Shown: positions 46,344-63,998 of the stretch, piece by piece
Numbering within the stretch: position 1 is the stretch's first letter
Layout: the number at the start of each line of letters is the position of its first letter
Program-made: the position numbers and the translations under genes
Assembly: GCA_038561985.1 (NCBI GenBank)
Contig: CP073276.1
Span: 3,224,001-3,288,000 of the forward strand
Origin: Petrimonas sulfuriphila
GTDB lineage: Bacteria > Bacteroidota > Bacteroidia > Bacteroidales > Dysgonomonadaceae
Direction: 5' to 3'
DNA length: 64,000 nt
Notes under the pieces: model-generated
Told to the model about the DNA's origin: nothing
Seen by the model: the letters and a program-made list of their open reading frames with translations, nothing else
The model's database searches: none

Positions 46344-46661
46344 TTCCAAATTGGAAATAATTATATATTAGGAACAGTTAATCAAGATGTGGAAATTGAT
46401 ATTCAAGGTATCACACAACAATATAATTCTTATTATGAAGGTTTGAAAAAAGTTTGCCAATACTGTTATTCATACAAGTCTTGCGGCTTATGTATGTTTC
46501 AAATTAAAAATTTTGACAAATTAAAAACTAAAAAATTTGTTTGCGATAATTTTTATGATAAAAAGAAATTTCAAAAGAAATTGTATCATATATTTTCTTT
46601 TTTAGAAAAGAATCCAAATGACTTTTTTGAAATATTGGAAAATTTTATAATTGAGGAATGA
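46344..46661 (+). pseudogene. Radical-SAM peptide maturase (GG-Bacteroidales type), C-terminal SPASM fragment
   Basis: About 105 codons, open from just after the IS3 end. It begins FQIGNNYILGTVNQDVEI, which is the usual SPASM lead-in, followed by the cysteine cluster CQYCYSYKSCGLC and a further Cys in FVCDNFYD, then a helical tail. The N-terminal radical-SAM barrel with CxxxCxxC is missing, as are start codon and ribosome site; two stops (46338-46343) separate it from the IS. The next gene, a pseudo-rSAM partner, overlaps by 4 bp (ATGA), the expected arrangement. I identify the family from the SPASM cysteine pattern plus the following cluster genes; it is a remnant and cannot work. Confidence 0.72.
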
Positions 46662-47830: not shown

Positions 47831-47831
47831 A

Positions 47832-48989: not shown

Positions 48990-48998
48990 TGGTTTAAA

Positions 48999-49703
48999 AT
49001 GGAGAAAAGCAACCAACTATTCAATCAAGAGCAACAAATTATCCACCGCCTGCTGTTAAACGCACCTTTTATACCATCCGTAGGATTGTTGACCGGACAA
49101 GTGGGTATTGCGCTTGCTTTTTACACATATTACAGGCACACCGAGTGTGCTGTCTATGGAGACTTTGCTGGTGAACTGTTGGACAATGCGCTTGAATCCC
49201 TCGACAAAAGCATTGATATCGCTTTCAGTAACGGACTGACCGGTATTGGATGGGGAATTGAATACCTTATTCTGAAAGGTTTCGTAGACGGATGTGGTGT
49301 GGAAATCTGTGAAAATATTGACCAAAAGATCATGGAAAGCGATCCGAGGCGAATATCCGACCTTTCCCTCGAACAGGGGCTGGAAGGGCTCATACATTAT
49401 GTGCTTATACATATATCAGCGAGTATCAAACAAAACGTCAGGCTTCCTTTTGACAGCCTGTACTTGAAAGATCTGTACACTGTTGTTAAACAAGCTTGTC
49501 AAGAGGATATCCCGGATTCATTCAGATCATTAGCGGAGATTTATATGGACTTTATAGAAAAACAGGAGCCGATCGACTATCCACTCCATTTATTCTCTTT
49601 TATAGATATAGTTCATCTTGATACGGATAAGTTAACAGATTATCCTTTAGGGATCAAAGATGGGTTGGCAGGGTTATTATTGAAGGAGATCACAAATGAG
49701 TAA
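48999..49703 (+). CDS. Short LanC-like protein
   Basis: 234 aa against about 400 for a full LanC. Three LanC-type glycine motifs are seen: SVGLLTGQVGIALAFY (about 27-42), SNGLTGIGWGIEYLI (about 79-93) and LGIKDGLAGLLL near the C-terminus. The zinc ligands of true lanthionine cyclases (Cys, then Cys-His) are absent. It may be a structural or peptide-guiding homolog instead of a cyclase, or the front half of a decayed one, although the frame is clean and its end overlaps the next gene by 8 bp. LanC-like proteins are known companions of this peptide system. Confidence 0.78.
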   Translation: MEKSNQLFNQEQQIIHRLLLNAPFIPSVGLLTGQVGIALAFYTYYRHTECAVYGDFAGELLDNALESLDKSIDIAFSNGLTGIGWGIEYLILKGFVDGCGVEICENIDQKIMESDPRRISDLSLEQGLEGLIHYVLIHISASIKQNVRLPFDSLYLKDLYTVVKQACQEDIPDSFRSLAEIYMDFIEKQEPIDYPLHLFSFIDIVHLDTDKLTDYPLGIKDGLAGLLLKEITNE

Positions 49704-50916
49704 GAACGTTTATATTCTCGATGATTCTTTAAGTTCCCGTGAAAACGGGATCGGCACTTTCCTTAAAGAGTTTGTTTCAATCATGAGGGAGTTGGATTTT
49801 CGTATCCATCTCCTGTCATTCAATGCAAAGACAGAAGGGTTTACGATCAGGGAAGAGTATGGAGTGAAAAGGTATTTATTCCCCATAATGAATAATGATC
49901 GGGAGTATCAGAAGTATGTTGGCATAATCAATAAGTTTATGTTGCTCTATATTCCGGATTCGACTGATAACCTGTTTTTCCTGAATCATACACCCTGTGA
50001 AAAACTCTTGGAATCTATAAAATCCTCCCACCCTTTATCCAAGCGGGTCTTTATTATTCATGACCTGATATGGACAGAACTCCTGAACGGCAGTCTGGAA
50101 CGGTTGAAGCACGTACTGAGCAAAAAGGAAAAGGATGAGACGGAAAAGAATATCTACAGTTATTTCCGAGAAGAGCAAAGGATGTATACCCTTGTGGACA
50201 GGGTGGTTTGTCTGTCGGAAAGCACATTCAAGATCCTGACCGATATCTATAAAGTTCCGTCCTGTAAAATATCTATTATCCCAAACGGGATACGAACAAA
50301 CAAATTAAAAGTACGGGATACGGATAAACTACGAAATCTTTTGTTTCTTCCAGAAAGAGAGAAAATTATGTTGTATGTGGGAAGAGCGACCGAACAGAAA
50401 GGATTGTTCGCGCTTATCCGGTCGTTTGAAAAAGTGTTGAAGAGAGAACCTAACCTGCGGTTGATTGTTGTCGGAACTTTTAAAGAAGAAGCTTTGGAGT
50501 ATATCTCCAAAAATCATTCATCTATCGCTTCGAGGATAACCTTTATCGGCTTTATTCCGAGAAAGGAGTTGTTCAAATGGTATGCGGTTACGGACATAGC
50601 CGTTATACCTTCCCTATACGAACAATGCAGTTATGTCGGAATGGAAATGATGATGCATGGGTTGCCAATAATTGCTTCAGATGGTATAGGGCTGAGAGAT
50701 ATGTTCCGGCAGGGAGAGAACGCGTTGGTTGCCAAAATCGGAAATCCAAAGAACGATTACAGGGAGTATATAGCAAACTTGACGAATTGTATTAACAGGT
50801 TGTTGGATTCCGGTGAATTGAAGGAAAGGATCAGAAGCGGTGTAACCGATACCTATAAAAAACAATATCACTCCCGCCACATGAGGGAGCGGTACAAAAG
50901 ATTGATAGAGGTGTAA
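49696..50916 (+). CDS. GT4-type glycosyltransferase of a GG-Bacteroidales peptide system
   Basis: 406 aa GT-B enzyme. N-terminal domain starts MSKNVYILDDSLSSRENGIGTFLKEFV. The C-terminal domain has the family-4 pattern: IMLYVGRATEQKGLFALIRSFEKVL, RLIVVGTFKEEALEYI, ITFIGFIPRKELFKWYAVTDIAVIPSLYEQCSYVGMEMMMHGLPIIASDGIGLRDMF, including the E-x7-E motif. Fits the TIGR04157-type glycosyltransferase linked to radical-SAM peptide clusters (from memory), so it may glycosylate the modified peptide. Overlaps the LanC-like gene by 8 bp; last gene of the operon, with an IS481-type element 34 bp downstream. Confidence 0.85.
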   Translation: MSKNVYILDDSLSSRENGIGTFLKEFVSIMRELDFRIHLLSFNAKTEGFTIREEYGVKRYLFPIMNNDREYQKYVGIINKFMLLYIPDSTDNLFFLNHTPCEKLLESIKSSHPLSKRVFIIHDLIWTELLNGSLERLKHVLSKKEKDETEKNIYSYFREEQRMYTLVDRVVCLSESTFKILTDIYKVPSCKISIIPNGIRTNKLKVRDTDKLRNLLFLPEREKIMLYVGRATEQKGLFALIRSFEKVLKREPNLRLIVVGTFKEEALEYISKNHSSIASRITFIGFIPRKELFKWYAVTDIAVIPSLYEQCSYVGMEMMMHGLPIIASDGIGLRDMFRQGENALVAKIGNPKNDYREYIANLTNCINRLLDSGELKERIRSGVTDTYKKQYHSRHMRERYKRLIEV

Positions 50917-50950: not shown

Positions 50951-52256
50951 ATCTGACAGTTAAGGGCAAAAACTTAAATTTGTAATTGCACAAACAAAGA
51001 AAGTTCAACCCTTAAAACTGTCAGAAATGAATTCAGAAACGAAGTTAATCAAAAACAAGTTAGGACTGCTTAAATTAGCAGAAGAATTGGGCAATGTCTC
51101 TCAGGCATGCAAGTATTTAGGATACAGCCGGGATACTTTCTACCGATACAGGGAACTAGTGGAAACCGGTGGTGAATTAGCTCTCAAGGAGATTAGCAGA
51201 CGCAAGCCCATCATCAAGAATCGTATTGAACAGGAGATTGAGGATCGGGTAGTAGCATTTGCAACAGATAATCCTGCTTTTGGTCAGGTCCGCGTTTCCA
51301 ACGAGCTGAAAAAGGAAGGTGTTTTTGTATCCCCATCAGGAGTTCGAAGTATTTGGTTGAGAAATGACCTGGAGACATTTCGCAAGCGATTGAAAGCGTT
51401 GGAATCAAAGGTTGCCCAGGAAGGAATCGTACTCACTGAATCTCAGGTTGTGGCTTTGGAGAAGGCCAAAGAGGAAAAAGTAGCCAAAGGTGAAATCGAG
51501 ACCTATCATCCCGGTTATCTTGGATCCCAGGATACATATTATGTTGGCAACATCAAAGGCGTGGGACGTATTTATCAACAGACATTTATTGACACGTACA
51601 CAAAGGTGGCCATTGTTAAGCTTTATGACCGGAAGGTGGCTCTTGTCGCTGCTGATATGCTGAATGACCGGGTTCTCCCTCTTTATGACCAGTACGGGAT
51701 CCCATTGATGCGTGTGCTCACTGATAGAGGAACCGAATATTGTGGTGCTAGAGAACACCACGAGTATCAACTCTACCTGGCTATTGAGGATATCGATCAC
51801 ACGAAGACCAAGGCCAGGAGTCCACAAACAAACGGTATCTGTGAACGTTTTCACCGAACAATGCAGGAAGAGTTTTATGCGACTGCATTCCGGAAGAAAA
51901 TTTACAAAACGGTCGAGGAATTGCAAAACGATGTGGATATCTGGTTGAAGTACTATAACAACGAGAGACCACATTCAGGCAAATATTGCTACGGTAAAAC
52001 CCCGATGCAAACCTGGAATGACAGTCTGCATCTGACAAAAGAGAAATTATTGGATACTCTGAATCAAAATTTTGTATCTTTGACTCCGTCGGATGAAGAG
52101 GAAACAGGCGCTGCTGGAGAGCAACTTGTCAGAAATAATCCGACTGGCTGGAATGGCCGAGGGGGTGAAAATACCCCCTCTTACCACTTTCCCATTCCGG
52201 TCAGCTATGTCTCAAAAAACTCAAATCCATAAATTAAAAAATGCCCACTGTCAGAT
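50951..52256 (+). mobile_element. IS481-type insertion sequence
   Basis: About 1.3 kb with terminal inverted repeats ATCTGACAGT..GGGCA on the left (50951-50968) and TGCCC..ACTGTCAGAT on the right (52242-52256). One transposase gene. No flanking direct repeat could be recognised. The next IS begins 21 bp later. Confidence 0.75.
51027..52232 (+). CDS. IS481-family transposase
   Basis: 401 aa. N-terminal helix-turn-helix (LAEELGNVSQACKYLGYSRDTFYRYRELVETGG), a second HTH/linker region, then an rve DDE domain with IYQQTFIDTYTKVAIVKLYDRK (first Asp), LTDRGTEYCGAREHHEYQLYL (second Asp) and KARSPQTNGICERFHRTMQEEFY (Glu). Intact frame, so the element may be active. Tail of about 60 residues is Gly/Asn-rich and less conserved. 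Confidence 0.93.
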   Translation: MNSETKLIKNKLGLLKLAEELGNVSQACKYLGYSRDTFYRYRELVETGGELALKEISRRKPIIKNRIEQEIEDRVVAFATDNPAFGQVRVSNELKKEGVFVSPSGVRSIWLRNDLETFRKRLKALESKVAQEGIVLTESQVVALEKAKEEKVAKGEIETYHPGYLGSQDTYYVGNIKGVGRIYQQTFIDTYTKVAIVKLYDRKVALVAADMLNDRVLPLYDQYGIPLMRVLTDRGTEYCGAREHHEYQLYLAIEDIDHTKTKARSPQTNGICERFHRTMQEEFYATAFRKKIYKTVEELQNDVDIWLKYYNNERPHSGKYCYGKTPMQTWNDSLHLTKEKLLDTLNQNFVSLTPSDEEETGAAGEQLVRNNPTGWNGRGGENTPSYHFPIPVSYVSKNSNP

Positions 52257-52372
52257 CAAGTCTGAACTATTACATTTTAGGACAGTCTTAGATTAGACTG
52301 CTAAATTAGTTATTTTCGTGTACAATGTTATGATGTCTGACAGATTTTTGATAAGCCACCCCCAATACGAGG

Positions 52373-52431
52373 CGGTACAGCGGGCAAGACTGCCCGTAAG
52401 GGCACTCGTCTTGGCCTTGACCGCTGTACCG
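52373..52431. repeat. Nested three-part stem-loop inside the second IS3 element
   Basis: Outer stem CGGTACAGCGG with CCGCTGTACCG (11 bp), middle CAAGAC with GTCTTG, inner TGCCC with GGGCA around a 4-nt loop. G+C-rich, unlike its surroundings, and 33 bp past the orfB stop codon. Confidence 0.6.
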
Positions 52432-52463
52432 GCTCGTGTTAACTTTGCTTGTCAAAGCATCTG

Positions 52464-53252
52464 TCATACTGCTTCCTTTCGTTTTATCAGTTCTTCCCTA
52501 TATTCAAAGGGCGTCATGTTGTCCAACGCTTCATGGGGCCGTTCTTCGTTGTAGTATTTCCGCCAGGCTTCAGTCAGTTCCCTGACTTCGGATATGTTGC
52601 GGAAAATATATCTATCAAGAACAGCCCGCCTGTAACTTCCGTTGAAGCGTTCAATGTAACTGTTCTGAGTGGGTTTACCGGGCTGAATATAGATGATGTT
52701 TATCTCATTGCCTTCGCACCAATCCTTGAATGCCTGGGCGATAAACTCAGGGCCGTTGTCGCAGCGTATGTTTTTGGGTTTGCCATTCAGCCATATGATC
52801 TTTTCCAGAACTTTAATGACCCGTTTTGCCGGCATGGACATCGATATCTCCTGCGCCACGGCAATCTTGCAGGCATCATCCATGATGTTAAGAACGCGGA
52901 ACTGCCTTCCGCACTCAATCCTGTCACTGACAAAATCAATGGACCAGGTAACATTGGGCTCTTTGGGCATAACCAGAGGGTTTTTAACCCTTGCGGGTAA
53001 GCGTTTCTTCAATCGGCTTCGTTTCTCATAGCGCATTGCCTTGTACACCCTGTAAACCTTCTTGTGGTTCCATCTCTTACCCTCACGTCTCAGTCTTGAA
53101 TAAATCTTCCAGAAGCCATCACCGAACTCGGCGGCGGCACGGATTGCTTCTTCCACTTCCGTATCATCTTTCTTCTCTGTATAGTAGAAGTAGGAGCGAT
53201 GGATCTCCATCAGCTTGCACGCCCGAGAGATGCTTATACCATGTTCTTCCAC
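52464..53252 (-). CDS. IS3-family transposase OrfB (second element)
   Basis: 262 aa DDE catalytic subunit. Starts MEEHGISISRACKLMEIHRSYFYY (HTH_21 region), then rve core: NVTWSIDFVSDRIECGRQFRVLNIMDDACK (first Asp), IRCDNGPEFIAQAFKDWC (second Asp), QPGKPTQNSYIERFNGSYRRAVLD (Glu), and ends with the usual LTEAWRKYYNEERPHEALDNMTPFEYRE. Probably made as an OrfAB fusion by frameshift from orfA. Confidence 0.94.
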   Translation of the reverse strand: MEEHGISISRACKLMEIHRSYFYYTEKKDDTEVEEAIRAAAEFGDGFWKIYSRLRREGKRWNHKKVYRVYKAMRYEKRSRLKKRLPARVKNPLVMPKEPNVTWSIDFVSDRIECGRQFRVLNIMDDACKIAVAQEISMSMPAKRVIKVLEKIIWLNGKPKNIRCDNGPEFIAQAFKDWCEGNEINIIYIQPGKPTQNSYIERFNGSYRRAVLDRYIFRNISEVRELTEAWRKYYNEERPHEALDNMTPFEYREELIKRKEAV

Positions 53253-53287
53253 TATCTCTCCTGCCAGTTCCTTCTTTACCTCGGGCT

Positions 53288-53554
53288 CTAGAGCTTTTTT
53301 TCGATGACCTCCTTCAGGATCTTGTTGTCGAGAGCAAGGTCAGCATACATCTGCTTCAACTTCCGGTTCTCATCTTCAAGCTCTTTGAGGCGTTTGACCT
53401 GACTCACCTCCATCCCACTGTACTTGGACTTCCAATTATAAAGGGTAGCCCTGGATATGTTGTAGTCACGCGCTACAACTGCGGCATCCACTCCACTTTC
53501 AAGCTGATGGACTGCCTTTACCTTCTCTGACTCGCTGTGTACTTTCTTTTTCAT
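53288..53554 (-). CDS. IS3-family transposase OrfA (second element)
   Basis: 88 aa from the ATG giving MKKKVHSESEKVKAVHQLE. Transposase-8 HTH (DAAVVARDYNISRATLYNWKSKY) followed by a coiled coil (RLKELEDENRKLKQMYADLALDNKILKEVIEKKL). The last codons GAA AAA AAG form the slippery site. Confidence 0.93.
   Translation of the reverse strand: MKKKVHSESEKVKAVHQLESGVDAAVVARDYNISRATLYNWKSKYSGMEVSQVKRLKELEDENRKLKQMYADLALDNKILKEVIEKKL
53293..53300 (-). other. Programmed −1 frameshift site of the second IS3 element
   Basis: Minus-strand A-AAA-AAG at the end of orfA. A −1 slip reads KKALEPEVKKELAGEIVEEHG and continues into OrfB without a stop, the standard IS3 OrfAB mechanism. Confidence 0.75.
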
Positions 53555-53609
53555 TGTTGTTCCTATGCAAAACAAAGTTAATACTTTTGTCTAACTTGGA
53601 ACTGTCCTA

Positions 53610-53910: not shown

Positions 53911-54090
53911 TTAGACAATAAAGTGACAAAATGAGTCAGAGAAATATCCCCCATGTGCCGGATCAGGTTGTATTCGTTTCAGGATATAGATGGCAACATT
54001 GATTGTTATGCCTGACAGCAGGATAAACGAGGTAAAGCCGTCCTGTTCCACTTTTTTCTTAAAAAAGACATTGACGACGTCCGCCGGCAT
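53911..54090 (-). CDS. Possible small membrane protein (uncertain)
   Basis: 59 aa from the internal ATG giving MPADVVNVFFKKK; a TTG 11 codons upstream overlaps the signal-peptidase stop codon. One hydrophobic segment (FTSFILLSGITINVAIYIL) after a basic patch, then IQPDPAHGGYFSDSFC. No family recognised. It may be a real last gene of the module or chance. Confidence 0.3.
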   Translation of the reverse strand: MPADVVNVFFKKKVEQDGFTSFILLSGITINVAIYILKRIQPDPAHGGYFSDSFCHFIV

Positions 54091-54115
54091 TGTGGATGTT
54101 AGTCTATTTGGCAGT

Positions 54116-55003
54116 TTATTCAATTTTTCTTATGATCCTATCCCTTCTGGACCTACCTGAATAAGGATTCACCGATTTCCATACCATCAATGCTTTCCCG
54201 ACGATAAGGTCGTCGGGAAGCAGTCCCCAGTAACGGGAATCCTGCGAATTTTCTACCTTATCGCCTCCCATAAAATAATAATTATGGGTGAAAGTATATG
54301 TTTGTAAAGGCTTTTCATTATCCCGCAACTTATCATTTTTAAAAGTAACGGAATAGCCTTTTTCCCACTCGATGATCTTTTTATAGAGCAACGCGTTTGC
54401 CTTGTCCAGTATAATACGGTCTCCTTTCTTAGGGATATATATCGGTCCGAAATCTTTGATATTCCAATTCAATACAGTGTCCCAGGGTAAAGTATTATAC
54501 ACGCCTTCCGGAAATGCATCTTCCGGCTTGCCGCTCAAAGCTAATTGCTCCGGGTAGTTTCCCAGCCGCTTTGACGTATCAGAGTTCACAGTGTAGATGC
54601 CGTTCACAATACGTAGGGTATCCCCCGAAACGCCTATACAGCGTTTGATAAAGTATTTTGACATGTTCATCTCTATCTTATCCCATGTATTGGGATGGGG
54701 AATATGAAAAACGACCACATCGTTATTTTTAATATGGGTGTAACCCGGCATGCGTTTAATTTTTACCTGCTTTCCTTCCACCGCAGCGAACAGATTGAAC
54801 AACCTGGCGCCGTAGGCTAACTTGTTAACCAGCACATAGTCGCCCGGTACAATGGCAGGTTCCATGGAATCCGTCGGTATCTTGTATGAACCGAATACAA
54901 ATACACGTAATAATATAAAACCGAATACTACAATGGAAGTATAATAAAACAGATTGAGGACGGTATTTCCGATCTTGCGGATTATTTTATTTTTATTGTT
55001 CAT
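54116..55003 (-). CDS. Signal peptidase I (S26A)
   Basis: 295 aa. One N-terminal TM at about 21-38 (YTSIVVFGFILLRVFVF). Catalytic Ser46 in IPTDSMEPAIVPGDYV; catalytic Lys120 in YFIKRCIGVSGDTLRI; C-terminal conserved box HNYYFMGGDKVENSQDSRYWG. A complete, probably active leader peptidase. Its place in an accessory module, overlapping by 11 bp the gene for an O-antigen-ligase-like protein and downstream of a small secreted peptide, suggests a dedicated peptidase in addition to the housekeeping LepB elsewhere; inference. Confidence 0.93.
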   Translation of the reverse strand: MNNKNKIIRKIGNTVLNLFYYTSIVVFGFILLRVFVFGSYKIPTDSMEPAIVPGDYVLVNKLAYGARLFNLFAAVEGKQVKIKRMPGYTHIKNNDVVVFHIPHPNTWDKIEMNMSKYFIKRCIGVSGDTLRIVNGIYTVNSDTSKRLGNYPEQLALSGKPEDAFPEGVYNTLPWDTVLNWNIKDFGPIYIPKKGDRIILDKANALLYKKIIEWEKGYSVTFKNDKLRDNEKPLQTYTFTHNYYFMGGDKVENSQDSRYWGLLPDDLIVGKALMVWKSVNPYSGRSRRDRIIRKIE

Positions 55004-56642
55004 TCATTACCTCCTTTTCTTTCAATATCTTTTTTACTTCATCGCGCATTTCCCTGATAGCCAGGGAATGGACTTTCGGTTCTTTTTCAAGAACTGCCAA
55101 AGCTGCCTGCCGCATTTTTCCGGGTTGATAGTTGAGCGAATCAGCATACAGTTTTGTGAGTAAGTAGTAAGGATAAATTCGTTCCGGCAGCAGCCATATA
55201 GAGTTTATATAGCATTCTTCAGCTTTACTATATTCTCCCATTTCCTGATAATTACGTCCTTTTACATTGTAAAACATTGGATCACAGCTTTTCTCAAGCC
55301 CCCGGTTGAAAATGCTGTCAGCATCTTCCCGTTGTCCTATGGCGTTCAGTATTATTCCATATTCAAAGACGAATTTCGGTTCGTAATTCAGTATCGGATA
55401 CAACTGTTCATAATCGTTTGCCACATTTTCATATGCTTTCATGGCGTAAAAAGGCCGAAGTTTTTTCCACTCTTTTTTTTCCTGATAGAATATCTTTTGC
55501 CGGTATGCAGTGATAACAGAAACAGAGCACAAAGCTCCTAACAGTAGAATGAAAACGACTATTTTTTTCCAACCATGCTGGTAAATTCGACTATTTTTAC
55601 TGTCTGTTCCGACTGTACAAGCGGTTCCCAATAATACCCAAACAACCGGAAATTGCCACAACTGATAGGGATAAGAGGCAAAAGCAAATACCGATAGGGT
55701 TACAAAACTGCCGACCGCTCCGATCTGTTTATTCTGAATACCTGATTTGATGATCAGGAATGAAAGTAAAAGAAATAGGATAAAGCCGAACAACCCCTGT
55801 TCGAGAAATATCTGCAAATATTCATTGAAGGCATATTCCGGACTTCCCGCCATTAATTTTTCGGTTTCGGAACCATTGCCGTTTTTAAAATATTCCATTT
55901 GCGCTTTTGCATAAGCGGCAGGGAATCCGCCCAGCCCGGATCCTTTTACCGGAGATTCCCGTATGGCCAATGCGGTGATTTTCCACATAAATAAGCGTCC
56001 GTCCGCAGAGTCTTTTTTGAGGTGGTAGATACCATAAACAGCTACAACTAAAAACAAGCTTAGAAGAGCTGCTCCAATGATACACTGTTTTCTATGGCGT
56101 TTCCAAAACAGGCGTAACTTTACAATAATGCGTTTGTCTGACAGCAATACGACCGCACATCCCACTATTGCTGCAATCCATGCCGTACGGCTCAATGTAG
56201 CAGGAAACACCATCAGGCAAACCGCTCCGGCGAAAAGGAAAAGATAACCAGTCAGTTTGTTTTTATATCTGTAAAATAGCCAATAGTGCAGAGCCAAAGG
56301 AAATATCAATGCTATAAATCCACCGTACGGACCGGGGTTGAAAAACGATCCGGTGGTTTTGAACAGGGCGTGTTTTGTCGGGAAATAATTATATAACTGC
56401 CCTAATCCCCATACGGCTTCAACCAGTCCCCAAACCAACAGCCCGATTAATATAAACGCTTTAAATTTAGGAAAAAACCGGTACGTGATTTTTAAGATAA
56501 ACCAAAGGAGTACTATTTGAATAAAAAACAGGAGAAACTCTGGTGAAAGATTCTTCCCGTATTGAAAAGTCGTAAAAACTATTATTGAGAATAATAGTAT
56601 TATTCCATCACTTATTACAGGTTTATTTATTTTCACCCTCAT
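54993..56642 (-). CDS. O-antigen-ligase-family membrane protein with C-terminal TPR region
   Basis: 549 aa; the ATG overlapping the upstream stop (TAATG) is preferred over one three codons earlier. About ten TM segments over residues 10-400, with a Wzy_C/O-antigen-ligase-like core: ATLSRTAWIAAIVGCAVVLL (conserved S-R-T region), MWKITALAIRESPVKGSGLGGFPAAYAKAQ, and EYAFNEYLQIFLEQGLFGFILFLLLSFL. The last 150 residues are TPR-like helices (YFNVKGRNYQEMGEYSKAEECYINSIWLLPERIYPYYLLTKLYA type). Catalyses transfer or polymerisation of undecaprenyl-linked glycans by family; no other glycan genes are adjacent. Confidence 0.87.
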   Translation of the reverse strand: MRVKINKPVISDGIILLFSIIVFTTFQYGKNLSPEFLLFFIQIVLLWFILKITYRFFPKFKAFILIGLLVWGLVEAVWGLGQLYNYFPTKHALFKTTGSFFNPGPYGGFIALIFPLALHYWLFYRYKNKLTGYLFLFAGAVCLMVFPATLSRTAWIAAIVGCAVVLLSDKRIIVKLRLFWKRHRKQCIIGAALLSLFLVVAVYGIYHLKKDSADGRLFMWKITALAIRESPVKGSGLGGFPAAYAKAQMEYFKNGNGSETEKLMAGSPEYAFNEYLQIFLEQGLFGFILFLLLSFLIIKSGIQNKQIGAVGSFVTLSVFAFASYPYQLWQFPVVWVLLGTACTVGTDSKNSRIYQHGWKKIVVFILLLGALCSVSVITAYRQKIFYQEKKEWKKLRPFYAMKAYENVANDYEQLYPILNYEPKFVFEYGIILNAIGQREDADSIFNRGLEKSCDPMFYNVKGRNYQEMGEYSKAEECYINSIWLLPERIYPYYLLTKLYADSLNYQPGKMRQAALAVLEKEPKVHSLAIREMRDEVKKILKEKEVMNEQ

Positions 56643-58612
56643 TACCACCATACCTGTTCATTGTTTTCATAGGTGAAAATTCTTTCTTCATTTCCCCTGG
56701 TTCTATTGTGTAACCATAACAATGCCCCTCGTGGAACATTATTAAATTCTAAGACCTTATTTGCCTTTCCTGTTTGTATACCTAAAGATTTTATATCGTT
56801 TCTTGAAAAATAAAATAATTCATATAGGTCTCCGGGTCTGATATTATTATCATCGTTCCTGAAGATATATTCAATTCGTTTTATTTTCTGAGGATAATTT
56901 AATTCGAGGCCGACCCACGCCCCCGAACTCTCTCTTGCGTCAAAGAAAGTAAGAGGGTCATTATCGAATACTGCATATTTATTTCCGCTCTTGATATTTT
57001 TATAAGAACCGTCAGTCCCTATTATACGGCCCTTCATTTTTTGATTTTTATCTGAAAAGAAATTTATTTCAGCCACATTACAACGTGCTCCCGGAGCGGA
57101 TAAATAGCGAATATATTTATATTCTTTTGTTGTTTCTATCAAAATTGTATCATAAGGTTCGGTATTTGTCTCCGGTATTGTATATAAAGTTGTTGCGTCA
57201 TGAAATTGTATATTATTTGATGCCTGGAATTTTCCGCCCGCCATCCTTTTTATATAGGAAGCTTTTAAAGGATATTTTCGTTTTATCGAAATATGATTTA
57301 TATTCTCAGATGGTATCAGTTTTCTAATTTTTTTATCTTTCTGAATTAATACGGGAAAATCCATCTGTTTGTTCGTATTATCTTTATAAGAGGTAAGAGA
57401 ATAAACGATACCCGGTTCTAAATTTTTAAAAATAATTTTCCTGTCATTTACGATTGCCCAATCGATAGGAATCCAATCTTTATTATTAAAAACACTGATA
57501 TATAAGATATCACCGTTTTTTATTTTTATATCGTCAATCTTAAAAGTTAAATATACTCCATCTATGTATTTATCGGAAATATTCGATAAAAAAATATTAC
57601 TTAATGATACAGGAATTTCCAAGTCAGGGTATAAATAGCGTAAAGATTCTTTTTGAACTTCAAAATTCATTCGATACACCTTTCCAATAACCCGGTTAGG
57701 AGGTCCAATTATATTGGTGTCAGGTCTTTTTTCATACAAAGAATAATCCACATGTTTTCCTTTTGTGTCAGACACATAATTCCAATAATGCGCACGGTAA
57801 TAACTATCGGGATTTTGTACGATCATATCAATTCCTCCGGGAATTGCAAGAGCACGCATGACATACGTCATGAATTTACTATATTCCGCACAACTTCCCG
57901 TTCTTTTATCAAGCAGGAATAAAGCACTTCGGTGGGGTAGCCCCGGATCCGGTACAAATATCCATTTTTGCTTTATGATTGAATCATATAATATTTGGCA
58001 AGCTGATACCGGGTCTTTTTTAGTTAACAGAGAATCAAGGACGGGATGGAATTTTTTGTAATAAGGTTCGCGCCATCTTTCCGTTGGTTCATTCCCCACA
58101 CGATAAGGTAGTATTTCATTACAAAATTCTGAAAAATTCAGGTTATTTCTCCATGCAGAATTTTCCCATGCCATAAACGCATGATTAATATTTTCTATAA
58201 GATAATCGGCTTTTATATTTTCTGCATCATTGAACATAACGTTATTGGAAAAAATTTTTCTTCCGTACACTTCATTTAAAGAATCAGCAAGTTCTTTAAT
58301 TGAAATATCATAAGAAGTAACTATGTTATAAAAATCCGCATAGTATTTATCCAGAGCATCATAGTCATAATAATAATGAAAAGGCATATTCCTGATCAGG
58401 AACTTTGCAGCTTCCAGTTTTAGGCTATCACTCTCAAAATGTTCCAATACTTTTTCCAGTTCTATTTTGTTCTCTCCGGCAAATTTTAATGATTGATTTA
58501 GTGCAGTGTCTTTTTTGCCCGGACTACAGTTTATACATATCAAATGAAAAAATAACAAACCGAATATCAGAAGTATATATATTCTCCTGTTTTTTAAAAT
58601 AATTGATTCCAT
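56642..58612 (-). CDS. Transglutaminase-like lipoprotein with discoidin-like C-terminal domain
   Basis: 656 aa, signal ending HLICINC (Cys29 likely lipidated). Transglutaminase-like core with a complete Cys-His-Asp triad: Cys241 in KRTGSCAEYSKFMTYVMRALAIP, His275 in YYRAHYWNYV and Asp289 in GKHVDYSLYEKRP. A beta-sandwich region follows, then an F5/8-type-C (discoidin)-like domain at about 500-645 (YIRYLSAPGARCNVAEINFFSD, YAVFDNDPLTFFDARESSGAWVGLELNYPQKIKRIEYIFRNDDNNI). Could be a protease, amidase or cross-linker acting at the cell surface. Same direction as, and overlapping by 1 bp, the O-antigen-ligase-like gene. AT-rich composition. Confidence 0.87.
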   Translation of the reverse strand: MESIILKNRRIYILLIFGLLFFHLICINCSPGKKDTALNQSLKFAGENKIELEKVLEHFESDSLKLEAAKFLIRNMPFHYYYDYDALDKYYADFYNIVTSYDISIKELADSLNEVYGRKIFSNNVMFNDAENIKADYLIENINHAFMAWENSAWRNNLNFSEFCNEILPYRVGNEPTERWREPYYKKFHPVLDSLLTKKDPVSACQILYDSIIKQKWIFVPDPGLPHRSALFLLDKRTGSCAEYSKFMTYVMRALAIPGGIDMIVQNPDSYYRAHYWNYVSDTKGKHVDYSLYEKRPDTNIIGPPNRVIGKVYRMNFEVQKESLRYLYPDLEIPVSLSNIFLSNISDKYIDGVYLTFKIDDIKIKNGDILYISVFNNKDWIPIDWAIVNDRKIIFKNLEPGIVYSLTSYKDNTNKQMDFPVLIQKDKKIRKLIPSENINHISIKRKYPLKASYIKRMAGGKFQASNNIQFHDATTLYTIPETNTEPYDTILIETTKEYKYIRYLSAPGARCNVAEINFFSDKNQKMKGRIIGTDGSYKNIKSGNKYAVFDNDPLTFFDARESSGAWVGLELNYPQKIKRIEYIFRNDDNNIRPGDLYELFYFSRNDIKSLGIQTGKANKVLEFNNVPRGALLWLHNRTRGNEERIFTYENNEQVWW

Positions 58613-58754
58613 CTATGAATTTTTGAAATGAATTCTGTTCTTAAGTGACCATATCATTTGTTCCTATAATATTATCCTCCTCATTTTCTACTTTATCCGA
58701 TAACAGCATAGTTATATTTCAAAAATTATAACAGATCATTGCGGAAACTTTTTA

Positions 58755-58994
58755 TTAATCCAAAAATGGATCACAGTCTCGAAAATCATGGGTGAACACA
58801 CAAATATGACTCAGTTGTATACACTTGCCAACGTTTGTGCTGGGGGAACCGATTTCACACGCTTCAGCAGATTGAGTTAAACTTAACAGGTTGATACTAT
58901 CAATGCTTTTTTTACTTAAACCAAGGGATAAGTTAAATCCTATGATTGTCACAAGAACAATAGCCGCAAAAAAAATCAAAATTCTTTTTTTCAT
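58755..58994 (-). CDS. NVEALA-like small secreted cysteine peptide
   Basis: 79 aa. N-terminus MKKRILIFFAAIVLVTIIGFNLSLGL is a signal or anchor segment; then SIDSINLLSLTQSAEAC, which resembles the DLxLxNVEALA leader motif of Bacteroidetes NVEALA proteins in a degenerate form. The C-terminal 34 residues carry four cysteines (46, 58, 65, 74) and end HDFRDCDPFLD. The motif probably marks a processing site just before the first Cys, leaving a peptide of about 35 residues with two possible disulfides. First gene of a leftward group leading to a transglutaminase-like protein and a signal peptidase. An IS4 element sits about 30-40 bp upstream. Confidence 0.7.
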   Translation of the reverse strand: MKKRILIFFAAIVLVTIIGFNLSLGLSKKSIDSINLLSLTQSAEACEIGSPSTNVGKCIQLSHICVFTHDFRDCDPFLD

Positions 58995-59025
58995 AACAAT
59001 ATAATTAACAATAGTCCGTTAAAAA

Positions 59026-60335
59026 TTTACTATATGAGTCATGCAGCAATGGCTGCAAACTCCACGAGTTCTTTAACAAGTTTATCATTTAATCTTCTGT
59101 TCGGCTTTATGCCGGACACGCAAATAAATCGTTCAAGCAGATACGCATTGTGAATCATAGTTTTACAGGAAGCCATTGAAAAAGGGATGCCCTTTTCTTT
59201 TGCCAACACCTTTGCCAGGTTTACCGATGTAAGAGAAGCATTAAAGTTGAAAGATAATTTTGAAACATCTCTTGCCTGGGATTGCATAAGTCCTGTAAAA
59301 GACTTGGCATCACGGAAACAAAATTCAATTTGAAAACGGGTACGGTAGTATTCTATTACATCTTTACCGCTCATGTGGGGGTTAGTTGAGAAAAACAGCT
59401 TAGGCTTTTTTGAGTCCTTAGAATACCAGATAACAAGTCGTACCATCTGCTTTAGTGATTTTGAGTAGGCTGTCAGCGTATATAGCCCTCCATTATCGAC
59501 AGCTATTTTCTCAGCTCTTGATTTATCAAGATTTGCCATGTCAATCTTGCCGTCGTATAGCTTAGGTCTGCCTCTTTTACCTGTTGGGCCCTCCAGTGTA
59601 GGATAAAACAAAACGGCATCATCCCTGAAACGGCTGATAAGATGGAAGTCCATTTCTTTTAAACCGGAAGCGAAACTGATTTTGGAGAAATAGGAATCAG
59701 CTACCACATAAGGGCTTATCTTGTGAAGTTTTTCTTCCATTGATTTTAGTACAAGAAGGTACCAATCAATCAGGTTGATATCGTTGCTCTCCAGCGTTTT
59801 ACCATCCGGTGTCTGAACAGCCTGAAGACTGATGCAGTCTTTATTGTCTATGTCAATGAGGCCTACTCCGAGAATTTCCAATCCTTTTTTTGCCCCTCCG
59901 GCTGTGCCCGACCAGAAGTAACCAATCCAGGGAGTACACTTTCCTGACTTGGATATATAACTGGGGTCAATGGCTATGGCCTTACGATCGCCGTTTAATA
60001 TCCGTTCAGACAAGGAAAGGTTAAACGAAAGCCAATCAAAATCCTTCGAGAAGTTTTGACGGAATCGTTGTTCACACGATTTGCCATACCTTCCCATCTG
60101 GAGGAAATTAATCCTGCCAGGGATGATTGTGTATAAGATTAATGTCTCCATAAGGAACGATTTGAAACTTTTGTTTAACTTCGTAGCTAGTTTATTTAAA
60201 ACGTCACTACAGATATCCCTATATTGGTTAAGTATGCTGGTTTTGTCCATCTTTACAGTGTTTGCAATTACTATAAAGATACTGAATATCAGCTGCTTAA
60301 CCTTATTTTTTATGTTAAATCATGTTGTATAAATC
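59026..60335 (-). mobile_element. IS4-family insertion sequence
   Basis: One transposase gene flanked by weak terminal inverted similarity (TTTACTATATGA on the left; TTTATACAACATGA read inward on the right). Ends are approximate. The left end is about 30 bp before the NVEALA-like start codon. Confidence 0.6.
59039..60250 (-). CDS. IS4-family transposase
   Basis: 403 aa DDE transposase. First Asp in KAIAIDPSYISKSGK, second in YVVADSYFSKISFASGLKEMDFHLISRFRDDAVL, and the IS4 YREK signature is exact in EYYRTRFQIEFCFRDAKSFTG (Y-2-R-3-E-6-K). Frame intact, so the element may be mobile. N-terminal part is helical (LNQYRDICSDVLNKLATKLNKSFKSFL). Confidence 0.94.
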   Translation of the reverse strand: MDKTSILNQYRDICSDVLNKLATKLNKSFKSFLMETLILYTIIPGRINFLQMGRYGKSCEQRFRQNFSKDFDWLSFNLSLSERILNGDRKAIAIDPSYISKSGKCTPWIGYFWSGTAGGAKKGLEILGVGLIDIDNKDCISLQAVQTPDGKTLESNDINLIDWYLLVLKSMEEKLHKISPYVVADSYFSKISFASGLKEMDFHLISRFRDDAVLFYPTLEGPTGKRGRPKLYDGKIDMANLDKSRAEKIAVDNGGLYTLTAYSKSLKQMVRLVIWYSKDSKKPKLFFSTNPHMSGKDVIEYYRTRFQIEFCFRDAKSFTGLMQSQARDVSKLSFNFNASLTSVNLAKVLAKEKGIPFSMASCKTMIHNAYLLERFICVSGIKPNRRLNDKLVKELVEFAAIAA

Positions 60336-60419
60336 ATTGATTATTAATTAGTTAGTTAAATATTTACCGAACTATTGAATTAAATTGATAAATAATTTTT
60401 ACTTTTTATATTTAAGTGG

Positions 60420-62774
60420 TTATTCGGATGAAACTTTTACATTCCTCATTACACGGAAATCTTTTTTACCGGTACCGAGAAGTCCGTTACCTCCGGCTCC
60501 TTCCACATACATTTTGAATTTGTTGTTGATGTCCGAGCAGTAGAATGAAACAGTAGCCTCGCCGTTCTCATCGGTTACTACATTGGGTTCCCAAAGAAGT
60601 GTATTTCGGCTGTCGGGAATCGAGGAAAGTATATCAAACTCGTCGGGTTGGTAAAATTCCCGTTTTCCGTAGTAACCTTTTTCACGGAAGATATTATTCA
60701 TTTCCAATAGTTCCTCGTCAGTGTAGTAGGGGCCTCGGTATTCTATTACTTTGATATCTTTTACATGCCAATAGCCATCCTCTCTTGGTTCGTATTTAAT
60801 GATCTCGTATGTTTTTCCATGAACCGGAGCAGATCTTTTTCCATCGTAATGAGAACAGGGACAGCCCATTGGATGATGTGTATATCCTGGCAGATAATCA
60901 TTCAAAAAGGGGTAGCTACCTTGATGGTCACACACCCATGCCGGGTTGAGGTTGACCTGTGCCAGGCTGTCGAGCCGTCCCATGAACTTGTCACGGTAAA
61001 CACGCCCCCTCGTTCCGATGACAGTGAATTCATCCAGCATGATGATGCTGTCGCTGCTCATCACCGGCATCCTGTCTTCCTGTTTCCCGTTCGGTTGTGG
61101 CCTATTAGCTGCAAGGGGGTAGTTTCGAGCTTTTATCTTTCTCAAGCTGTCGACCAGATGGAAAAATCCTTCGGTTTCCACTTTGGGTGTAAACTCCTTG
61201 CCAAGCATCGGTTTCAGGTAGATATAGCCACCCCTCAAATCTCTCAATATTTCAGGTTCCACGTTGAAATACCCTGCAGAATCCGTCCAAACAAACTGTG
61301 CGTCGCCTTCGGCCCCGAAAACCTGCACGAGTTGTTCGCCACCGCTGACATCCCTGCTTTTGCGTTCGCTTTTGAACGTCTGCCGTCCGGGTACGCCGTC
61401 AGGAAGGAAAATTTCACCGCATGGTGTAAAGGTTTCTGCATCCCACACGTAACGCCTCCATCCCTGGGTGAGCATCAGCAAGTCCAACGCCTCAATACGG
61501 TCTTCATTTTCCTCATCAAAATAGTAGGCGGGATTGAAAATCCTTCCTTTCAGCTGTGTAGAAAGGTGATAGTGGGTTAGTATGTTTACCGGATCGGCAG
61601 GGTTGGAGTATGCCTCGTCGAACACGCTTAGACCGAGGTGCGCCTGCACCGGTTTACCCTCTTTGTCGGTTACCTTTATAACCACCTCCGTTTTTTCACG
61701 GGTGTAATAAATATCTTTAGGGGTTGCCAGGCTGATATTCAGCTTCCTCTCCGGGAACAGGTACACCAGCCGTTCGCATACCGGTTTCATGTCACGGGTG
61801 AAGAGGGTGAACTGCGCGATACCCTGGCCGGGAAAATCGCCGAGCGGCATCTTTACCGGGATGCTGTCCCTCAACATCCCCCGGGCGATGCTGCATACAA
61901 TGCCCCTTTGTTGTCCGAGCAGGTAGAATGGCTGTGGTGACAGTCCGGGACTTTGGAAAACGGTAAACTGTAAATATTCTCCGGTTTGCTCGGAGAGCCG
62001 CAGGGAAATACCTTCGTCATGAATATGGGGTAATGGATAGCTTTTCCCATTGGTGAGTTCCATGCGGTAATCCTTGTCGCTTCGAGGTGTGAATTCTACA
62101 GTCCCCATTCCTGCATGGATGGTTGAGACTGGCTGTAGGGGGTGATCATCTTCATAGAGCATGCCCGATACTTCGACCGGCTTTCCCTTTCCATCAGTCG
62201 CCTTGAATGCCAACCGTGCCGGAAAACCTCTGACGAGGTTCCCACCTTCGGGCAGGATGACGAAAGATGAGGTCTCCCCCTTAGGTTCTATGCCGGCCAT
62301 AGCGACAGTATCTAAGGAATAAGTATGTCCACTGATATTGTCCACGACCCGTATCTTCCGCAGCGATGTGAACCGGGTGCTGTCTGCACGGAATGATTGC
62401 GGGGTGAATGCTTCCATGAAGTAATCACCAGGAGGCAGTTCCCTGTCAATGTATACCTGACCCTCGGCCACGCCTTTTTCTATGGGATATTTTTCCTGCC
62501 ATACCAGTGTGTCGTTCTCGCCTCTTAATTCGAGGTAGAGTGTCCGGCTGAGGTTGGAAAATTGCAGTGTCTGTGCGTCTAACTGGTATGCCTTGAACCA
62601 GAGGTCCTCCCCGGTTTCATAAGTGTCTTTGGATGTTTGCAAATAGATCATCTCGGGTGCGTGGTGGCTCAATTGTTGCGTAACCCTCCCTGCAAGCATG
62701 TCAAGGTCAGACTGGGCCTGGGACGAAAGCACATGTCCAATGACAAAGATACAGATGAGAATTTCCTTTTTCAT
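60420..62774 (-). CDS. Alpha-2-macroglobulin-like (MG-domain) exported protein
   Basis: 784 aa, signal peptide 1-20 (VLSSQAQ). Macroglobulin-type beta domains: MIYLQTSKDTYETGEDLWFKAYQLD near 42 and TPKDIYYTREKTEVVIKVTDKEGKPVQAHLGLSVFD near 360. A late part resembles a plug-type segment (SIIMLDEFTVIGTRG), and a cysteine-containing loop (HPMGCPCSHYDG) may bind metal. Ends with LLWEPNVVTDENGEATVSFYCSDINNKFKMYVEG, like the end of the same proteins elsewhere in Bacteroidetes. No thioester motif, so not a protease trap. It lies 17 bp after the CxxC lipoprotein gene; the IS4 element separates it from the NVEALA-like gene. Confidence 0.82.
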   Translation of the reverse strand: MKKEILICIFVIGHVLSSQAQSDLDMLAGRVTQQLSHHAPEMIYLQTSKDTYETGEDLWFKAYQLDAQTLQFSNLSRTLYLELRGENDTLVWQEKYPIEKGVAEGQVYIDRELPPGDYFMEAFTPQSFRADSTRFTSLRKIRVVDNISGHTYSLDTVAMAGIEPKGETSSFVILPEGGNLVRGFPARLAFKATDGKGKPVEVSGMLYEDDHPLQPVSTIHAGMGTVEFTPRSDKDYRMELTNGKSYPLPHIHDEGISLRLSEQTGEYLQFTVFQSPGLSPQPFYLLGQQRGIVCSIARGMLRDSIPVKMPLGDFPGQGIAQFTLFTRDMKPVCERLVYLFPERKLNISLATPKDIYYTREKTEVVIKVTDKEGKPVQAHLGLSVFDEAYSNPADPVNILTHYHLSTQLKGRIFNPAYYFDEENEDRIEALDLLMLTQGWRRYVWDAETFTPCGEIFLPDGVPGRQTFKSERKSRDVSGGEQLVQVFGAEGDAQFVWTDSAGYFNVEPEILRDLRGGYIYLKPMLGKEFTPKVETEGFFHLVDSLRKIKARNYPLAANRPQPNGKQEDRMPVMSSDSIIMLDEFTVIGTRGRVYRDKFMGRLDSLAQVNLNPAWVCDHQGSYPFLNDYLPGYTHHPMGCPCSHYDGKRSAPVHGKTYEIIKYEPREDGYWHVKDIKVIEYRGPYYTDEELLEMNNIFREKGYYGKREFYQPDEFDILSSIPDSRNTLLWEPNVVTDENGEATVSFYCSDINNKFKMYVEGAGGNGLLGTGKKDFRVMRNVKVSSE

Positions 62775-62791
62775 AATACCAAATGGAACTA

Positions 62792-63238
62792 TTAAAGTTG
62801 TCTTTCGAGATCATATAAAGCTGTTGTTTCAGGTGATTGAAAAGAATGTTTGACTACTTTACCATCCTTGAGGGATACCACGCATGGGTAAATATTATTT
62901 TGTGTGGGGATGTTGAAGAGAAGCTCTTTATCTATTAATACGTTTTGACGATCAAGTAGATTTACTTCTACTTTTTGTTGAAGAATTTTCAATGAAGGTG
63001 TTTTTAAAAGTACAAAAAGAATTTCATTGTTATCAACATGGCTTTTCAGAAAGTATTCTCCTTCCTGAATGCAACCATGGCATCCTAATCCGGGTAAGAT
63101 AACGACCCATTTGTAATGGTTATCAATCGGAACCTGATTAATTGCGTTTGTCAAAAACTCCATTTCTTTCTTTGTATCATTGTCACCACAGGATGAAAAT
63201 AAAAGAAACAGAAAAAGAACTTTTAATATGATTTTCAT
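62792..63238 (-). CDS. Thioredoxin-like lipoprotein with CxxC motif
   Basis: 148 aa from the ATG giving MKIILKVLFLFLLFSSC (lipid Cys17); an upstream in-frame start would overlap the DUF4221 gene. KWVVILPGLGCHGCIQEGEYFL carries a CHGC motif at the place expected for a thioredoxin-like active site; a later Tyr-Pro-Cys (NIYPCVVSLKDG) matches the cis-Pro region. Short for a TlpA, but consistent with a small redox lipoprotein. Could act on the cysteines of secreted peptides; inferred. Confidence 0.72.
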   Translation of the reverse strand: MKIILKVLFLFLLFSSCGDNDTKKEMEFLTNAINQVPIDNHYKWVVILPGLGCHGCIQEGEYFLKSHVDNNEILFVLLKTPSLKILQQKVEVNLLDRQNVLIDKELLFNIPTQNNIYPCVVSLKDGKVVKHSFQSPETTALYDLERQL

Positions 63239-63251
63239 TGTATGTGTATAT

Positions 63252-63998
63252 TTAATTAATCGAATCCATAGAGAAAATCTTAAAAGTAAGATAATCCTCA
63301 TTCAAATCATCACCAATAAATTCAATATTCAATCCTTCACGGGTGATAAACGAGTTATTCCAATTCCATTCTTTGCCTGTGCCGATATTTGTTTCGCCTA
63401 AATAGTTGAAGTTTTCATCCATTATTATGATCATGATGGGTTTTTCCTCCTTGGGAGTACTGAAAGTAGCACCCGGTACGCCTTTTAACAGAAAGCGATA
63501 GTATATATCCCTGAATTTGTCATAAAGAACAGCTGCATACATATCCTGTTGTAAATAATGTGCAACTACCAACTCATCCGGTGTATTTTTGGCTTCCCTG
63601 TCAATAGACCTGATGGTATTGGCATTGTTGCTTCCGCCATATACTTTTTTATATTCGTTGGAATCGTAATCAGATATGTACAGATCGTGTGAAGCCGGGA
63701 AACTGTATATTAAAGATCCATTGGGAGACAATGCCGGATATACCTGTGTAGGTAAACCTCCTTCCCAATTGGAGTTTTTACCGTATATCTCTTCGGGGTA
63801 GGTATGAGAATAATTAACCTGATTATTCTGAATGTCTATATAGGCAGAAAAGCGGAACTTTGACAAATTTTGCTCGGGGATTGAGAAAAATGATTGTCCG
63901 GTAATGATAAGGTGACGGTCTATTTCATAAATAGGATTTACCGTACTTAATAAATATTGTGGCAGATATAATGGCCACTCAGGATCATTGCTCCGTAA
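63252..63998 (-). CDS. DUF4221-type beta-propeller protein (C-terminal part, 5' end outside window)
   Basis: At least 248 residues, open to the right edge; an internal TTG start would give a truncated protein and is not real. Visible blades include LYLPQYLLSTVNPIYEIDRHLIITGQSFFSI, YPALSPNGSLIYSFPASHDLYISDYDS, and the end LNIEFIGDDLNEDYLTFKIF. Matches the DUF4221 family of 6-bladed propeller lipoproteins in Bacteroidetes. 13 bp before the CxxC lipoprotein gene; with the macroglobulin-like gene it forms a leftward trio. Confidence 0.78.
   Translation of the reverse strand, partial: LRSNDPEWPLYLPQYLLSTVNPIYEIDRHLIITGQSFFSIPEQNLSKFRFSAYIDIQNNQVNYSHTYPEEIYGKNSNWEGGLPTQVYPALSPNGSLIYSFPASHDLYISDYDSNEYKKVYGGSNNANTIRSIDREAKNTPDELVVAHYLQQDMYAAVLYDKFRDIYYRFLLKGVPGATFSTPKEEKPIMIIIMDENFNYLGETNIGTGKEWNWNNSFITREGLNIEFIGDDLNEDYLTFKIFSMDSIN

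Follow-up and report, generated by a model that had tools for sequence, protein, structure and literature searches.

We examined a 64,000-nt stretch of the Petrimonas sulfuriphila genome (the window; positions 3224001-3288000 of a single-contig 3.83-Mb genome in Dysgonomonadaceae, the family that contains Proteiniphilum), in which four adjoining genes encode a short cysteine-containing precursor (PEP1), a transglutaminase-fold protein (TG), a WaaL-fold membrane protein (OAL), and a signal peptidase I (S26). From sequence comparison, this segment may represent the enzyme end of a Bacteroidales secreted-peptide system, which would mature and release polymorphic disulfide peptides with cognate propeller proteins, probably for competition; we hold this reading tentatively, at close to even confidence. 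All four genes run leftward on one strand, with overlaps of 1 (or 10) nt and 11 nt among the TG, OAL, and S26 genes and a gap of 142 nt between PEP1 and TG that holds no terminator-like site on that strand. The coordinates, the overlaps, and the 79-aa four-cysteine precursor described in a first-pass annotation were thereby confirmed. Its gene set was also found to recur as far as the three enzymes and the small cysteine peptide are concerned; the recurring set is wider than it had proposed, including propellers, CxxC lipoproteins, and often RND exporters.

Precursor leaders and cores

PEP1 is composed of a leader of about 45 aa (MKKR...SAEA) and a core of about 34 aa with four cysteines. It had no Pfam match at E ≤ 1 and hence lies below the curated cut-off of PF14055 (NVEALA). 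A profile of 56 leaders was taken from NVEALA precursors of related loci, none from the window, with PEP1 and a second precursor just past the window end (PEP2) excluded. This profile matched PEP1 (E = 1.9e-5) and PEP2 (E = 1.1e-4), with the next best open reading frame (ORF) of the locus at 0.11. Judged by this match, PEP1 is a divergent NVEALA precursor with a homologous leader, and the degenerate NVEALA leader noticed at first pass was borne out. PEP1 shares with the family a basic start, a hydrophobic block, a closing small-x-small site, a cysteine-rich C-terminus, and a propeller in the locus, and it differs in the missing Pfam match and in the closing motif, where PEP1 and PEP2 carry SAEA and TAQAA instead of the NVEALA letters. 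The closest relative of PEP1 and PEP2 in this analysis was the peptide of locus L045, whose locus shares the DUF4221, MG2, and CxxC genes.

Leader-profile matches were obtained for 98 ORFs in the collected loci, 85 of which had a recognisable closing motif; after identical cores were merged, these gave 78 unique cores in 57 clusters. The 13 matches without such a motif, the L045 peptide included, were left out of the cysteine and site counts. Every core cluster held at least two cysteines, and the number was even in 49 of the 57 and odd in 8 (p = 1e-8), with four cysteines in 28 clusters and a mean core size of 46 aa. Cysteine made up 8.8% of core residues and 0.4% of leader residues, and CC pairs were depleted in the 78 cores (10 vs. 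25.8 on shuffling). Mean within-genome identity in G000 (9 precursors) and G052 (17 precursors) was 0.48-0.58 for leaders and 0.16-0.22 for cores, compared to 0.14-0.15 for shuffled cores. The residue after the closing motif was Q in 30 of the 78 cores, in line with the Q-rule for Bacteroidetes signal peptidase I substrates as it appears in portions of PMC5837995 and PMC10653852. The third residue was E in 69 of the 78.

Association of S26 with NVEALA precursors

S26 scored 111 bits against TIGR02227 (cut-off 47), and its S46 and K120, which we take to be the Ser/Lys dyad of type I signal peptidases, were conserved in 13 of 13 sequences. The genome contains four S26 genes, three of which adjoin an OAL; the other, of 525 aa, lies elsewhere and is a housekeeping-type LepB, from which the window S26 subfamily is distinct by sequence. 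Among 295 Bacteroidales genomes, NVEALA was found in 17, OAL in 27, and the S26 subfamily (called at E ≤ 1e-45) in 11. NVEALA and S26 occurred together in 9 genomes from 7 families (expected 0.63; Fisher test, p = 3e-11), NVEALA and OAL in 12 (expected 1.56; p = 1e-10), and OAL and S26 in 9 (expected 1.0), with the pairings spread over 7-8 families and the p values treating genomes as independent. Only one S26 match in the order fell into a grey zone (G265, 7e-49), and without it 9 of 10 S26 genomes have NVEALA. Because NVEALA precursors accompany the S26 subfamily in 9 of its 11 genomes, the best reading of this S26 is that of a dedicated maturase, and it is probable, judging from these associations, that S26 cuts the precursor leader at the closing motif.

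Apparent cassette exchange beside S26

The slot beside S26 was compared among 8 loci chosen by hand, which gave 28 pairs, 12 of them aligned across the peptide start; the near-identical pair L037/L076 was not counted, leaving 11 informative pairs. Homologous DNA (78-94%) extended into the leader and broke off at codons 44-50 in 8 of the 11, which amount to about 5 distinct comparisons because L037 and L076 are near copies, and L032/L073 share only a 131-nt match. NVEALA ends at codon 44-46 in these loci. The other three pairs stop earlier, at codons 15, 15, and 27. Between L033 and L038, which come from one species, the flanks are 98-99% identical and the core and following partner have been replaced; one locus has a cluster F0 propeller, the second a DUF4221 propeller, and homology ends at codon 15. 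From these breaks and this replacement, the leader appears to be the constant part, while the core varies jointly with its partner. No other observation points as strongly to a functional boundary at the closing motif and to a core and propeller that belong together.

Propeller partners, pumps, and regulators

A propeller gene directly follows 72 of the 88 precursors, with 68 matching the propeller (PROP) profile at a median gap of 86 nt and 4 belonging to DUF4221, and PEP2 is directly followed by a DUF4221 propeller as well. S26 is the gene directly before 9 of the 88. Of the 18 DUF5128 matches in the Petrimonas genome, 16 fall at 2.988-2.993 and 3.548-3.585 Mb, either inside its two other NVEALA arrays or no more than about 25 kb from them. 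In many loci, RND, MFP, and TolC genes (ACR_tran, HlyD, OEP) alternate with peptide-propeller pairs or lie next to S26-OAL.

The main rival to a competitive role is signalling, in which the core would be a secreted pheromone or self-recognition signal, the propeller its receptor, and a membrane-spanning ToxR-like regulator the reader of the result. Such a regulator, with a Trans_reg_C domain (5.1e-6) and hydrophobic segments, stands divergent beside 6 of the 88 precursors, and 19 have one within 10 kb; a CxGxGSxDC-like pattern is retained across genomes in the adjacent core, and each peptide has one partner. We nevertheless consider signalling rather unlikely, given the hypervariability of most cores in the two genomes compared above, the presence of up to 22 NVEALA matches per genome, and the fact that no ToxR-like regulator was seen in the window's own locus (L034).

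The regulator was observed divergent to a 73-aa NVEALA precursor at L063 (10130-11589) and L038 (17856-19315). Unlike most cores, that of this ToxR-adjacent precursor can still be recognised from genome to genome, reading CLGLGSLDCP in L038 and L063 and similarly in L083, L084, L102, and L137. The 73-aa precursor with its recognisable core is a candidate for a signal of the system.

Diversity and possible roles of OAL and TG

We compared OAL distribution with that of the peptides in 101 genomes of the family. Of the 11 genomes with close-clade OAL, 10 had NVEALA, compared to 0 of the 9 with distant OAL only, the two groups having been assigned by hand (at least 37% identity or not). The single close-OAL genome without NVEALA is G032, and G025, counted as distant, has an S26 cluster with the window-like L045 peptide. 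The 45 OAL loci of at least 9 kb, some of which are close relatives of one another, comprised 12 with S26 and an NVEALA-profile peptide, 8 with S26 alone, 3 with the peptide alone, and 22 with neither (Fisher test; p = 9e-4). Under a looser peptide rule, the corresponding counts were 13, 7, 6, and 19 (p = 0.007).

An alternative explanation is that the two parts merely neighbour each other, with TG and OAL (with or without S26) forming a separate envelope module beside which peptide-propeller cassettes accumulate. TG and OAL are indeed together in 14 of 18 distant-clade loci of at least 9 kb (L046-L058, L061, L062, L119-L121), none of which has S26 or an NVEALA-profile peptide, and plasmid locus L139 carries the enzymes without a detectable peptide. 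That explanation is, however, distinctly improbable in our view, since the S26-linked OAL clade tracks NVEALA by genome and since one plasmid carries S26, OAL, TG, peptides, and pump as an unbroken series on a single strand.

The first-pass annotation had proposed that S26 matures the peptide and that TG and OAL either join the matured product to a surface glycan or protein or build polymers of it. Both enzymes recur with S26 and are coupled to it by gene overlap, and their folds, which are those listed among the matches with others possible, would suit conjugation. The fold of OAL is that of WaaL. TG combines a transglutaminase fold, in which the Cys/His pair is present, with a C-terminal carbohydrate-binding-module-like domain, the two halves of which match 2yb7 (E = 4.7e-28) in swapped order; D289 was noted as a candidate for its third, acidic residue, with D/E in 16 of 28 sequences at the best of six columns, where the alignment slips. 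PglL genes adjoin likely substrates in 21 of 31 cases according to a portion of PMC3643930, which also gives the key ligase residues (E. coli WaaL R215, R288, and H338; PglL H349).

The equivalents of WaaL R215 and R288 are kept in OAL (R155 in 37 of 38 rows, R219 in 38 of 38), but the position of H338/H349 holds F275 (hhalign alignment to WaaL), and across OAL relatives it is F in 34, Y in 3, and H in 1 of the 38 rows. The Bacteroidota O-glycosylation sequon D(S/T)(A/I/L/V/M/T) was found in 0 of 78 cores, compared to 6.8 expected on shuffling, although D[ST] (13 vs. 28.4) and [ST]D[AILVMT] are depleted too, so that sequon avoidance as such is weakly shown. TG-OAL pairs also occur in loci without S26, propeller, or peptide. 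Taken together, these observations turned against attachment or polymerisation, and surface conjugation is a very doubtful explanation. General O-glycosylation of the cores by OAL was likewise rejected as a likely role, there being no sequon in the 78 cores. The depletion of D[ST] and the sequon perhaps reflects avoidance of a general periplasmic glycosylation system.

Evidence against a dedicated peptide-maturation system

Several observations weigh against reading the segment as the enzyme end of a competitive peptide system. PEP1 itself is without the NVEALA letters and without a propeller directly after it, TG coming next. In 71 leaders, the closing motif follows the hydrophobic block at a distance of 21-29 aa, which exceeds that of an ordinary signal peptide, so it looks by its position like the end of a pro-region; another protease could cut at the NVEALA site. 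Among the 295 Bacteroidales genomes, the S26 subfamily is absent from 8 of 17 NVEALA genomes and OAL from 5 of 17, and NVEALA is absent from 2 of 11 S26 genomes and 15 of 27 OAL genomes. Some of the NVEALA genomes without S26 are fragmentary or have weak matches, but G220 and G377 are 99% complete with matches above the Pfam cut-off, and NVEALA precursors can therefore do without this S26.

The S26 threshold is unspecific beyond Bacteroidales, where 95 of 247 phylum genomes pass it, presumably with ordinary peptidases. Half of the NVEALA genomes of the family (10 of 20) are without the close OAL clade, several of these being fragmentary. Among the S26-bearing OAL loci of at least 9 kb, 8 of 20 had no NVEALA-profile match, or 7 after a looser motif scan, one of which has a related ORF by eye; visibly related small ORFs are present in two profile-negative S26 loci (L114, NVEALT type; L118, IEALG type). 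L139 has S26, TG, a split OAL, DUF4221, CxxC, and MG2 with no detectable peptide in 25 kb. Occurrence of the three enzymes without a small cysteine peptide, which the first reading had counted against itself, was in this way found in part, on one plasmid. RND genes are within 10 kb of only 21 of the 88 precursors. Lastly, the competition role is proposed by analogy only.

Proposed pathway

Under the reading of the segment as part of a peptide-maturation system, the precursor would enter the inner membrane via its N-terminal hydrophobic segment, and S26 would remove the constant leader of about 44 aa at the small-x-small closing site, which is NVEALA in most precursors and SAEA in PEP1. A cut at this site is suggested by the co-occurrence of the genes and by the module boundary at that codon. 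The core cysteines, whose even parity was observed, would be paired with help from the CxxC lipoprotein encoded nearby, a step to which we give slightly better than even confidence. According to the part of PMC6671954 consulted, general disulfide machinery is reported to be missing from Bacteroides, and bacteroidetocin loci encode an oxidoreductase of their own. Export of the core by the RND-MFP-TolC pump encoded in or near many such loci seems evenly balanced. Each core would work with its own propeller lipoprotein, with which it would be exchanged as one cassette, and by analogy the two would most likely be a competition peptide and its protective partner, a role held a little below even confidence. 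OAL and TG would be accessories holding, folding, or processing the peptide at the membrane.

A bolder version envisages a new polymorphic peptide system of gut and environmental Bacteroidales and their plasmids, with a leader socket for swapped core-propeller cassettes, S26 cutting at the edge of the socket, and a His-less WaaL-fold protein turned to peptides and loading the RND pump with TG. In this full form we regard it as unlikely.

Occurrence in plasmids and named strains

A tblastn search of 72,556 plasmids returned S26 (E ≤ 1e-30) in 4 records, all Phocaeicola from human gut strains and all with OAL and TG matches (L135, L137, L138, L139). Largely the same module is present on P. vulgatus CL10T00C06 pPvulCL10_1 and P. 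dorei CL06T03C03 pBdorCL06T03-4, which carry NVEALA, propeller, S26, OAL, TG, and propeller genes, so annotated by others. The interval from the first propeller to S26 contains a redoxin-domain gene in pPvulCL10_1, and a shorter hypothetical gene and two transposase genes in pBdorCL06T03-4. An RB-TnSeq library of P. vulgatus CL10T00C06 has been described (PMC13114119). The row on P. massiliensis OY726023.1 runs through a peptide, a CxxC protein, five peptide-propeller pairs, a further propeller, S26, TG, OAL, MFP, RND, TolC, and RND; a ToxR-like gene is divergent at its start, and a 155-aa S26 piece lies further up. In P. massiliensis TSDC17.2-1.1 the module is found on two plasmids in different sub-types. 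A scan of the named genome collection returned one relative, Proteiniphilum acetatigenes DSM 18083, and no S26 relatives were found in viral contigs.

Comparison with known systems

The bacteroidetocins, class IIa-like Bacteroidales bacteriocins, resemble the present peptides in core size (42 aa; here a mean of 46), four cysteines (here 28 of 57 clusters), nearby thiol-oxidoreductase-like genes, and Bacteroidales hosts, as far as described in the portion of PMC6671954 consulted. They differ, in the same source, by a double-glycine leader of 15-16 aa and an ABC transporter/peptidase, in contrast to the NVEALA-type leader, S26, propellers, and often RND genes found here. The PEP1 leader has no GG at its end, and no peptidase-containing ABC exporter was found among the 21 window proteins scanned. 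OAL is like the PglL/WaaL/PilO ligases (Wzy_C) in its WaaL fold, both key Arg residues, and frequent position beside a likely substrate, and unlike them in its Phe for His, its C-terminal TPR tail, and the lack of a pilin or sequon-bearing substrate.

The GG-Bacteroidales radical-SAM systems (TIGR04150/04157), with TIGR04149 as what we take to be their precursor family, are also Bacteroidales peptide-type systems with a DUF5128 propeller, and they have pseudo-radical-SAM, LanC-like, and glycosyltransferase genes in place of S26, OAL, and TG. One such operon is located in the window at 46389-50916 (+), 3 kb from the module, and contains a TIGR04150 pseudo-radical-SAM protein (389 bits; cut-off 250), a DUF5128 propeller, a LanC-like protein (20.7 bits; cut-off 23.2), and a TIGR04157-like glycosyltransferase (354 bits; cut-off 400). 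A precursor peptide was not found there. Because this operon too has a DUF5128 propeller, propeller lipoproteins accompany two different peptide-type systems.

In the open-licence literature searched, the word NVEALA did not occur, and the Pfam names and numbers of the families returned only papers on other subjects (Plasmodium, enzyme profiles). The combined searches, which covered open-licence papers without supplementary files, gave no account of the gene set among the matches listed, and the main text of the Bacteroidales survey of ribosomally synthesized and post-translationally modified peptides (PMC10352776) mentions no propeller, signal peptidase, O-antigen, or transglutaminase. The initial impression that no system with this gene set had been described therefore holds as far as these searches reach.

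Genomic context of the segment

Table 1. Features of the segment and its surroundings, in window coordinates.
Feature	Description	Coordinates	Strand	Remarks
ORF	70-aa ORF, doubtful gene	53911..54123	-	no family
S26	Candidate dedicated signal peptidase I	54116..55003	-	
OAL	WaaL-fold polytopic protein, C-terminal TPR domain	54993..56651	-	
TG	Probable lipoprotein, transglutaminase/PNGase-like fold and C-terminal carbohydrate-binding-module-like domain	56642..58612	-	
PEP1	Divergent NVEALA-class precursor, 79 aa	58755..58994	-	leader-profile match; no Pfam match
IS	IS4/IS701-like element	59009..60377	.	transposase 59039-60250
MG2	MG2-domain secreted protein	60420..62774	-	member of PEP1-TG-OAL-S26 unit
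CxxC	Small lipoprotein with GCHGC (CxxC) motif, candidate thiol oxidoreductase	62792..63301	-	
DUF4221	Propeller-type lipoprotein, 406 aa	63252..64000	-	gene continues to 64472 past window
PEP2	Second precursor	64497-64763		51% identical to PEP1; just past window end

The genes for PEP2, the DUF4221 propeller, the CxxC lipoprotein, and the MG2 protein are located upstream of PEP1 on the same strand. The MG2 protein has a 48% identical copy in the L045 cluster and is present too on plasmid L139; the CxxC lipoprotein had no thioredoxin family match in domain scans. An insertion sequence (IS) element with 21-nt inverted ends and AATTAA on both sides sits between MG2 and PEP1, ending 14 nt before the PEP1 start codon, and further copies (79% and, partial, 83%) occur in the same genome. 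Locus L045 (genome G025) has the uninterrupted order OAL, window-like peptide, DUF4221, CxxC, MG2, second CxxC protein, and S26, and L139 (plasmid OY725998.1) shows this order again with TG added at the end; its OAL is broken into two ORFs, and no peptide was detected in it. Since these loci hold the same families together, the IS element has split one larger unit, of which the PEP1-S26 segment is the downstream half.

The IS element has replaced all sequence lying more than 14 nt ahead of the PEP1 start, which places expression of PEP1-TG-OAL-S26 in doubt; its transcription may now be driven from the IS element, or absent. A sigma-70 promoter scan (29 sites vs. 21.6 ± 4.6 in shuffles) was not informative. 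After S26 (51027-53575), the place at which several relatives keep a peptide cassette is occupied by an IS481 transposase (280 bits; cut-off 224) and, judged by eye, IS3-like transposase ORFs. An 830-aa protein occurs in L039 (1272-3764) and in L045 (438-2930), where it adjoins S26 and is a TonB-receptor-like outer-membrane protein (Pfam OMP_b-brl_3, 7e-93).

Implications

Leader-core secreted peptides are an already known kind, and it is the set of S26, WaaL-fold/TPR, transglutaminase-fold, and propeller genes, often with RND genes, that is apparently undescribed. This gene set would give context to the annotated but unexplained families NVEALA, DUF5128, and DUF4221, and the role of these families becomes testable in named gut strains. 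A large hidden repertoire of disulfide peptides may exist in common gut and environmental bacteria, given that a single genome can have as many as 22 NVEALA matches.

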